A DNA stretch of 64,000 bases from Bdellovibrio sp. KM01 (GTDB taxonomy: Bacteria > Bdellovibrionota > Bdellovibrionia > Bdellovibrionales > Bdellovibrionaceae), in assembly GCF_013752535.1 (NCBI RefSeq), contig NZ_CP058348.1:434001-498000 (forward strand). Reading direction: 5' to 3'. Positions within the stretch are counted from its first letter, which is position 1. Each line of letters begins with the position of its first letter. A program made the translations under genes and the position numbers. Below the pieces are notes generated by a model. The model had not been told where the DNA came from. It saw only the letters and a program-made list of their open reading frames with translations, and did not search any database. Positions 32,887 through 34,927 of the stretch are shown piece after piece.

Positions 32887-33630
32887 ATGAAGCATTGGTT
32901 ACTGGCAATTCTACTTATCATTCTGGGTATTTCTTTTGCTGAAGCCAGCACGGCCGCTCCTCGTAAAATAGTTTTGGTCGGTGCTTATGGTTTCGCGCCT
33001 TACTATGACCTGGAAAAGGGTCGGGGAATCATAACGGATGTTTTAGAACAGTTAAATTCTATGCAGCCTGATTTTCAATTCAAGGTGGTGGAAATTCCCA
33101 GTCGTCGTCGCTATCAAAGTTTTGTCGAACGCAAAGTGGACATGATTTTTTTTGAGGACCCTCGTTGGGATTGGAAGGACATTGCTCACTATGCTTTGCC
33201 AGTGGGTGTTCAAGATGCTGAGGTCTATATCGCTCTTAAGAAAAAGGCGAAGGATCAAAGCTACTTTAGTTCTTTAAAGAATAAACGAATTGCCGTTATT
33301 CTGGGGTACCACTATGGTTATGCAAAATTCAATGCTGATGAAGCCTATCTGCAATCCAATTTTAAAATCTCCCTGGTCAGTCATAACTTAGCCTCTGTGC
33401 GATTGGTTTTGCATGAGCGAGTGGAAGTGGCTGTTGTACCGCTGCCCTTTATCCGTCGCTACTTGCGTGAAAATCCCGATAAAAATGCCGAAGTATTAGT
33501 TTCAGAAAAAGTCGATCAACATTATGATTTGCGATTAATTGTGAATCCCAAAGCGGCCATTGCCCGCGACCGTTTAGAAAATCTGATGTCTAAACTGGTG
33601 AAAGAACCCGCTTACCAAGCACTCTTCTAA
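32887..33630 (+). CDS. Periplasmic solute-binding protein (family 3 type)
   Basis: A 247-residue protein with a signal peptide (cleaved near FAEAS). The order KIVLVGAYGFAPYYDLEKGRGIITDVLEQLN, VVEIPSRRRYQSFVERKVDMIFFEDPRWDW, SLKNKRIAVILGYHYG and RVEVAVVPLPFIRRYL follows amino-acid-binding-type periplasmic proteins. No permease or ATPase gene is near. It may be an orphan receptor feeding a chemoreceptor or signalling protein. Ligand unknown. Confidence 0.8.
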   Translation: MKHWLLAILLIILGISFAEASTAAPRKIVLVGAYGFAPYYDLEKGRGIITDVLEQLNSMQPDFQFKVVEIPSRRRYQSFVERKVDMIFFEDPRWDWKDIAHYALPVGVQDAEVYIALKKKAKDQSYFSSLKNKRIAVILGYHYGYAKFNADEAYLQSNFKISLVSHNLASVRLVLHERVEVAVVPLPFIRRYLRENPDKNAEVLVSEKVDQHYDLRLIVNPKAAIARDRLENLMSKLVKEPAYQALF

Positions 33631-33817
33631 AATTTCCCGTGACTAAAACAGTGAACACTTATCAAGCAATGAAACATAAAAGTTGGAATTGTCGTTTTTT
33701 TGTTAGTTTTGGTTTTCAAAATCTAAAAAACTGCTGACCATCGAACAAATGAATGCTGGAGTATTATAGATACGTGATCACAAGAAGTGATTACATAAAC
33801 TGACATAAAGGGATTTT

Positions 33818-33901
33818 ATGTTGAAGACGTCACTGACGACGAAAAATGCATCTGCATATGCGGGTGATGGTGATAACCGTCCTGTACCGTGGCCGTGGTA
33901 A
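33818..33901 (+). CDS. 27-residue peptide with a Pro/Trp-rich C terminus
   Basis: An isolated small gene: AAAGGGA lies five bases before the ATG and a strong terminator begins right after the TAA. The peptide starts MLKTSLTTKNASAYAGD and ends GDNRPVPWPW. There is no clear signal peptide, so a cut between the polar leader and the DGDNRPVPWPW tail is possible but unproven. The preceding 187 bases hold AT-rich sequence and a small ATCAC/GTGAT hairpin. It could be a signalling peptide, a modified-peptide precursor or a translated leader. Coding status is inferred from the ribosome binding site and terminator placement only. Confidence 0.45.
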   Translation: MLKTSLTTKNASAYAGDGDNRPVPWPW

Positions 33902-33902
33902 T

Positions 33903-33936
33903 AAAAAACCCGCTCTTTCGAAGCGGGTTTTTTATT
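33903..33936 (+). terminator. Terminator directly after the small peptide gene
   Basis: ACCCGCT pairs with AGCGGGT around CTTTCGA, with A- and T-runs on both sides. It may also serve the opposite-strand lipoprotein gene ending at 33993. Confidence 0.85.
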
Positions 33937-33992: not shown

Positions 33993-34535
33993 TTAGCGAG
34001 TGAATGTTCCGTAGATGTAAACTGGGTCCTGCACATAGTGGCAGTCTTCATACGGTGGGCGGTGATTGTCGCCAGGGTACCAGCGGCATTCGCGGCGTTG
34101 GCGCATTTCACGAAGGATTTGCATCTGTAACTTAACGTTACCGTTCTTCTCTTTGAAATCGACATAGGCTTTGCGACCTTGAACCATCAAAGCACAACGA
34201 CCACGGTCAAAATCAAATTCTACGGCGTCGACTTGCGGGTTCGATTTTTTGCCCGTGATATACACTGTTCTTAAATTCCCGAAAGAAGATTGGCAGTTGT
34301 TATTCAAGATATCAGTGCCCATTTCGTTGCGGTACTTCAGGATGGGCTTGTTACCTTCAAAGCTCAATATCAACTCGCCATATACGCCGTTGAATTGGCC
34401 AGAGTAAACACCTTCATACTTTTTGGCTTTTGAAAGATAAGCGTTTGGAACGCGGCCATCTTTGATTTCGACAGTTTTGCAGCCAACAGCCGCAAACAAC
34501 ATAAGACCTGCTATCAGAGCTTTAATAAAGTTCAT
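33993..34535 (-). CDS. Lipoprotein, unknown function
   Basis: A 180-residue protein with a clear lipobox (MNFIKALIAGLMLFAAVGC). The mature part is beta-rich (YEGVYSGQFNGVYGELILSFEGNKPILKYR), ending in an Arg- and aromatic-rich tail with two Cys (RRECRWYPGD, EDCHYVQDPVYIYG). Other Cys are NNNCQSS and GRCALM. No family recognised. It is transcribed alone towards the terminator shared with the small peptide gene. Confidence 0.65.
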   Translation of the reverse strand: MNFIKALIAGLMLFAAVGCKTVEIKDGRVPNAYLSKAKKYEGVYSGQFNGVYGELILSFEGNKPILKYRNEMGTDILNNNCQSSFGNLRTVYITGKKSNPQVDAVEFDFDRGRCALMVQGRKAYVDFKEKNGNVKLQMQILREMRQRRECRWYPGDNHRPPYEDCHYVQDPVYIYGTFTR

Positions 34536-34690: not shown

Positions 34691-34927
34691 ATGAAAATGG
34701 CAATGGTAGCGCTGCTCCTGGTTGGCGGCACAGCAATGGCACAGATGCCCGATACCTCTAAAATGATGGATCAAGCCAAGGGCAAGGCCACAGACATCAT
34801 GGCGGCTTGCAAAGAGGATAAGATCAAGTTCTGTGATAAGGTCACAGAGATGAACGCGATCAAAGAGTGCCTGAAGAAAAATAAAGACGGCCTGAGTGCC
34901 GGCTGCAAATCTACTCTGGGCTTATAA
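34691..34927 (+). CDS. Small exported protein with a GLG1-like cysteine-rich repeat
   Basis: A 78-residue protein behind AAAGGAGACCCT with a signal peptide ending AMA-Q. The mature domain has the spacing C-x7-C...C-x10-C in AACKEDKIKFCDKVTEM, AIKECLKKNKDGLSAGCKSTLG. This matches the cysteine-rich repeat of Golgi GLG1-type proteins, which also occurs as single repeats in proteobacterial periplasmic proteins. The longer frame upstream overlaps the opposite promoter region and lacks a ribosome binding site. Role unknown. Confidence 0.7.
   Translation: MKMAMVALLLVGGTAMAQMPDTSKMMDQAKGKATDIMAACKEDKIKFCDKVTEMNAIKECLKKNKDGLSAGCKSTLGL

Follow-up and report, generated by a model that had tools for sequence, protein, structure and literature searches.

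A 27-codon gene downstream of recA in Bdellovibrio ends in a motif also carried by an exported protein whose gene adjoins that of a TPR-winged-helix regulator: a candidate intracellular ligand

The window, that is, the whole 64-kb stretch of DNA that was analyzed, lies in the genome designated G000 (3.96 Mb, single contig). Downstream of recA, a binding-protein-like gene ending at 33630 was followed by 187 bases and then by a short ORF with an ATG start and a TAA stop, which agrees with the non-coding spacer of more than 180 bases given in the original prediction. The signals surrounding this ORF are listed in Table 1. Its leader (33766–33820) was predicted to form two hairpins, and hairpins of 7–9 pairs, with partly different arm sequences, were also present at the microprotein leader of the genomes G012, G022, and G005; they may control the translation of the microprotein. 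The terminator was called from its fold, because a consensus scan of the microprotein region, which returned no terminators and no sigma-70 promoters, had missed it. The folding energy, z-score, and conservation of this element bore out the terminator that had been attributed to the ORF, and it is probably bidirectional and common to the convergent gene at 33993–34535. As this next gene past the terminator runs in the opposite direction, a leader peptide, one of the roles first suggested, found no support.

A Pfam scan covered the microprotein, RecA, the binding-protein-like protein, two proteins encoded on the minus strand, and a small Cys-rich protein; none of these six was a modification enzyme. 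The microprotein itself had no family match in Pfam, NCBIfam (among the matches listed), or PHROGs. The Cys-rich protein, encoded at 34691–34927, is small and exported and showed a weak PF00839 match below the cut-off; its gene was conserved in G011 and G022, where it adjoins the convergent lipoprotein-like gene.

Table 1. Features of the microprotein locus (window positions) and of the second locus carrying its terminal motif.
Feature	Position	Strand	Remarks
Microprotein gene MLKTSLTTKNASAYAGDGDNRPVPWPW	33818..33901, stop included	+	27 codons; orthologues in G012, G022, and G005
Last nine codons, DNRPVPWPW	33872..33898	+	Motif common to the exported protein; synonymous-only changes with respect to G022
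Start box CATAAAGGGATTTTATG	33804..33820	+	Small predicted hairpin whose loop holds the ribosome-binding site and whose stem holds the start codon
Inverted repeat GTGATCAC-AAGAA-GTGATTAC, 8 pairs	33774..33794	+	Microprotein 5' leader; 55-nt region, z -3.74
Intrinsic terminator (predicted)	33900..33936	+	Hairpin and T-run, fold -18.9 kcal/mol, z -4.07; conserved in four species
Exported protein, about 185–190 aa	G000:C1:3776645-3777214	-	Carries DNRPVPWPW behind the signal peptide

The microprotein gene was detected in four (G000, G012, G022, and G005) of the 24 genomes of Bdellovibrio species, always downstream of recA and converging on another gene. The start box was recovered there with 0, 0, 2, and 1 mismatches in these four genomes; downstream of recA in the other 20, its best match had at least four mismatches and no trace of the gene was found. 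The G012 microprotein was 89% identical to that of G000, with three amino acid differences (codons 11, 14, and 16) and identical last nine codons. Between G000 and G022, these nine codons differed by four synonymous and no non-synonymous changes, the random-change expectation being about 21% synonymous (P about 0.002). The tail of G005 showed eight non-synonymous changes and one synonymous change with respect to that of G000 and is a different type of motif. All of the length differences within the ORF between genomes were whole codons. The recurrence of the ORF, the start box, the terminator, and the position relative to recA, together with the synonymous-only tail and the whole-codon lengths, placed the ORF beyond chance, and it is almost certainly a real gene. 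The view of it as a small gene that stands alone and has an initiation site of its own was thus confirmed by what recurs in four of the 24 genomes, and the comparison with relatives that had been suggested as a way of refuting it found the frame intact wherever the gene was present.

The same comparison argued against the adjoining binding protein as a partner of the peptide, as had been guessed. The binding-protein gene was located between recA and the microprotein gene in G000 and G012, was absent from that place in G022 and G005, and occurred without the microprotein gene in G011, where about 40 bases separate the neighboring genes.

A second copy of ten residues, GDNRPVPWPW, was found in G000 directly behind the signal peptide of an exported protein, which was present in all 24 genomes of the genus and in 59 of the 66 of the family. 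A profile built from the four microproteins found the motif of this protein in 15 of the 24 genomes at E ≤ 10. The motif was the only sequence that the microprotein and exported-protein genes had in common, and the two are very probably related through it. The tail, which had been singled out as unusual, was therefore real and conserved but not unique, and its occurrence within a much larger exported protein told against the precursor of a modified peptide.

An exact search for the tail in 84,980 species genomes, a collection that may omit the genome of the window and those very near to it, gave no matches. In the 24 genomes of the genus, PWPW-stop had 13 further matches in frame, which were rejected as chance, all 13 lying within or opposite longer ORFs. 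The pattern D-R-x3-[WF]-P-x-stop yielded 47 matches in the genus, and among eight regions chosen by their tail, only that of G005 was a free-standing gene. The DRW-type motif pattern matched 18 times in 17 of the 24 genomes; since 17 of these matches were the long exported protein and one was due to chance, there is no second kind of free peptide with the exact DRW motif. A candidate peptide in G019 (L246) was likewise dismissed as a chance match.

The AlphaFold model of the exported protein, made for a relative in L209 (mean pLDDT 71.7, 6-row alignment), was an eight-stranded barrel with a G-x-W segment. Its best Foldseek matches (nitrophorin, nitrobindin, and NanoLuc) had E-values of 0.039 or weaker and a TM of about 0.3; hence, a calycin fold is only plausible. 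The protein belonged to no Pfam, NCBIfam (among the matches listed), or PHROGs family. Residues P48, P56, W57, G62, and W64 were invariant in 22 exported-protein sequences, and the motif lies in a conserved stretch adjoining the G-x-W segment. Given these invariant barrel residues nearby, the motif, which is internal in the exported protein, may serve the folding or the structure of the barrel there.

The gene directly upstream of the exported protein encoded a regulator in which a TPR array is followed by an OmpR-type winged helix at the C-terminus, at all of the 30 loci examined, out of 60 exported-protein matches in 59 genomes. PF13424 and other TPR models were above the cut-off, and the Trans_reg_C winged helix was placed at residues 291–351; a weak match to TPR_MalT remained below its cut-off, and none of the NCBIfam matches listed (25 of 31) reached its own. 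The regulator ORF of G023 (L076:375-1310) breaks off in the winged helix, possibly through a frameshift, a sequencing error, or a real loss, in a genome listed as 100% complete. An in-frame duplication of 17 residues was observed in the winged helix of the regulator from G016 / B. bacteriovorus strain kdesi (L083, L214).

Paralogous pairs of regulator and exported protein also turned up incidentally. G014 and G009 each have a TPR-winged-helix paralog followed by the gene of an exported 135–137-aa protein with GPGDGPIVPWPTS behind its signal peptide, and G074 has a further paralog followed by the gene of an exported protein with GDGMPLPWPFPWAKD. This repetition of the arrangement indicated that this type of regulator accompanies an exported protein with a PWP motif at the same place. 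Paralogous TPR-winged-helix genes at L006:347-1893, L011:1180-2717 (reverse strand), and L013:293-1968 overlapped exported-protein genes, the products of which had GDGPIVPWP or GDGMPLPWPFPW after the signal peptide (VPWP/LPWP motifs).

G000 carries a second TPR-winged-helix regulator (G000:C1, 2019401-2020459), 32% identical to the first, which could be the real target of the microprotein. Directly after it lies a free-standing 47-codon ORF (L252:2757-2900, in G000:C1) with its own AAAGGAG site, a terminator-like hairpin, and no PWP motif, the product of which may be a further small partner of such a regulator. Two promoter blocks that are highly conserved in the genus, CATTACATTACTGAAATCAATTC and ACATTGACGAAATCCTGACAATCTG (L062 to L085), lie no more than about 130 bases before the gene of the first regulator and could be its own operator. 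A comparison of the conserved CCTGACAATCTG of the regulator promoter (-57) with GCTGACCATCGAAC of the microprotein promoter (-85) did not reveal a convincing shared operator, as 63 of 127,974 window positions scored just as well and G005 had no such box.

The motif of the exported protein was DNRP(V/I)PWPW (NRP) in six genomes (G000, G012, G022, G011, G021, and G013) and of DRW types in the other 18. In the regulator, 32 TPR columns had disjoint residues between these two sets, all of them in residues 101–276 (the core) and none in residues 1–100 or in the winged helix. Random six-genome sets never yielded even one disjoint column (0 of 2000), and no more than two were obtained when the clade of G000, G012, G022, and G011 was kept and the other two genomes were swapped. 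On the recA tree, where G010 (DRW) joins four NRP genomes at 100/100, three changes are required to account for the type label, and well supported branches force two or more of these. The TPR-core tree, on the other hand, united the NRP genomes in one group at 100/100, a grouping that was rejected in the flanks, only at p 0.042.

Sliding DNA identity gave the same picture. The core of G010 was like that of G005 (74–90%) and unlike those of its sister species (52–78%), which its winged helix (up to 94%) and barrel part did resemble, and G021 showed the converse. Only the core and the motif followed the type; the winged helix, the signal peptide, and the barrel did not. A single transferred tract therefore fails to explain three motif residues following the core. 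The partial Mantel correlation between motif and core was 0.63 (p 0.00025) with recA, the TPR N-terminus, and the barrel held constant. When only the 13 non-redundant DRW genomes were considered, the partial r was not significant (0.12, p 0.24), while the motif correlated significantly with the TPR N-terminus and with the barrel. The co-variation signal is the NRP/DRW switch itself, which amounts to two or three events.

Furthermore, the type of the microprotein tail was that of its own genome in all four cases, which are effectively two independent ones, because the three NRP cases form one lineage. NRP cores were accompanied by DNRPVPWPW tails in G000, G012, and G022. In G005, which has a DRW core, the motif of the long protein was DDRWTHWPW and the microprotein tail DDRFIHWPW, with an unusual H in both.

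The type-separating sites were denser on the first helices of the repeats than on the second ones (18/64 vs. 8/66, Fisher p 0.028), six of the 32 falling outside both; the helices were taken from an AlphaFold regulator model of moderate confidence (6-row alignment, mean pLDDT 73.3). In TPR arrays, extended peptides lie in a groove whose walls are formed chiefly by the first helices of the repeats. The nearest Foldseek neighbors of the regulator TPR included LGN, KLC, NprR, and Rap, TPR proteins solved with peptides or other partners, several of the entries being peptide complexes by title. Taken with the denser first helices, these peptide-binding neighbors led us to propose that the TPR core reads the motif.

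The reading that we favor, with a probability of about 0.5, is that the microprotein acts as a cytosolic ligand, either a mimic or a decoy, of the TPR regulator. The best 9-residue Kyte-Doolittle mean was -0.13, -0.13, 0.21, and 1.9 in the four microproteins (-0.13 in G000), and 2.41–3.74 in the 24 long exported proteins. In view of this lack of a signal-like hydrophobic stretch, the microprotein would be expected in the cytosol together with the regulator. The lack of a hydrophobic stretch and the near-neutral charge also spoke against the secreted and the antimicrobial peptides of the original prediction, and the signaling peptide proposed there survives as an intracellular ligand, its secreted form being unsupported.

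The C-terminal nine residues of the microprotein would reproduce, in free-standing form, a short linear motif that the TPR core (residues about 101–276) would recognize in its groove. The exported protein would present this motif in cis, either while still an unexported precursor or through a fragment that comes back, and the microprotein would do so in trans within the cell, acting as a mimic, a decoy, or a co-effector that sets the activity of the regulator. Export-coupled feedback, in which the regulator is held by the unexported precursor, would be possible, as would the return of a cleaved peptide, and the effect of the microprotein could be activation or inhibition. The microprotein is not a core part of this system, since 20 of the 24 genomes lack its gene. 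The conserved gene, the common motif, the fixed adjacency of regulator and exported protein, the allelic matching of core and motif, and the matching tail type are computed results; it is the physical binding, the direction of the effect, and the identity of the target genes that we infer.

It is unlikely, in our estimation, that some other partner (an export or folding factor, a protease, or the barrel itself) binds both the microprotein and the N-terminal strap of the barrel, with the regulator uninvolved. The location of the motif in a conserved stretch by the G-x-W segment makes a structural role possible, and the lack of a convincing shared operator would also fit. Nevertheless, neither the exact matching of TPR-core and motif types nor the repeated regulator-motif gene pairs would be explained by such a partner, and a partner in the periplasm would be missed by a microprotein without an export signal. 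Rather improbable is an explanation by linkage, in which core and motif recombine together as neighboring DNA and the microprotein is a by-product copy of the N-terminus of the exported gene, with little function. The regulator and exported-protein genes are indeed adjacent, and two or three transfers suffice in the recA tree. However, neither the winged-helix and signal-peptide DNA between core and motif nor the barrel behind the motif follows the type, the microprotein has only the motif in common with the long gene, and the tail changes between G000 and G022, being synonymous only, point to purifying selection.

The predicted stable 5' hairpin and start-codon hairpin (z -3.74) could suggest that what is conserved is RNA, in the form of a small RNA or of a structure (the hairpins of leader and initiation site and the terminator), and that the peptide is incidental. 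This is highly improbable in light of the synonymous tail changes, the whole-codon length differences, and the recurrence of an amino acid motif at an unrelated locus; moreover, Rfam gave no match in the 64-kb window. A secreted signaling or antimicrobial peptide is scarcely credible, even with a Trp/Pro-rich tail and an adjoining binding-protein-like gene (weak PF12974 match, below the cut-off), because the microprotein has no signal sequence, a near-neutral charge, and no family match, and the binding protein is unlinked to it across species. The N-R-P-V of the tail may resemble apidaecin.

Compared with known systems, the cytosolic ligand proposed here recalls the RRNPP regulators (Rap, Rgg, NprR, PlcR, PrgX). 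Both have a cytosolic TPR regulator with a short linear peptide ligand (a putative one in this case), an apparent variation of receptor and ligand in matched types, and a TPR peptide-binding domain, the Foldseek matches of the regulator including NprR (NprR-NprX), RapH, and RapI. The DNA-binding domain here is, however, a C-terminal OmpR-type winged helix, whereas RRNPP receptors have an N-terminal XRE-type helix-turn-helix or phosphatase/effector helices. Their small propeptide gene adjoins that of the receptor, a place taken here by the exported barrel protein gene (30/30 loci). RRNPP peptides are exported and then re-imported by Opp; the microprotein gene is unlinked to the regulator, elsewhere in the chromosome, and encodes no signal sequence. 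The host here is Gram-negative, and RRNPP systems belong to Gram-positive Firmicutes and their mobile elements, according to the survey PMC10075063. By analogy, the regulator/motif system would work like RRNPP sensing, yet it fails the defining features and is not a member.

The kinesin light chain TPR also has a groove that reads a short motif of Trp and acidic residues, as the regulator may do, and KLC2 with a tryptophan-acidic peptide (6f9i) was among the Foldseek matches of the regulator TPR; nonetheless, it is a eukaryotic cargo adaptor and no regulator, and the likeness is one of fold and motif style only. SARP/BTAD proteins and MalT similarly join a TPR array to a DNA-binding domain, but in SARPs the winged helix is N-terminal and the domain order therefore differs. 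The exported protein has the predicted eight-stranded barrel and the G-x-W segment of calycin/lipocalin barrels (nitrophorin, nitrobindin, NanoLuc), but no significant structural or profile match to them. The accessible parts of the literature on Bdellovibrio small proteins, TPR regulators, small RNA, and quorum-sensing peptides contained no account of the gene pair or of the microprotein.

If the proposal is true, the matched receptor and motif types would offer a handle on self-sensing or on the control of export or development in Bdellovibrio, which are poorly understood, and a frame of 27 codons, which gene finders may overlook, would have been linked to a chromosomal regulator via sequence alone. 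Gram-positive bacteria are known to have TPR receptors that bind linear peptides inside the cell. Tentatively, and with more doubt than confidence, the system may be a kind of peptide-motif signaling of its own in a Gram-negative predator, consisting of a TPR-winged-helix receptor, an exported barrel protein bearing the motif of the ligand, and a leaderless mimic microprotein that only some species have, with exchangeable matched core and motif types that would resemble the pherotypes of Gram-positive quorum sensing and would have been reached independently.
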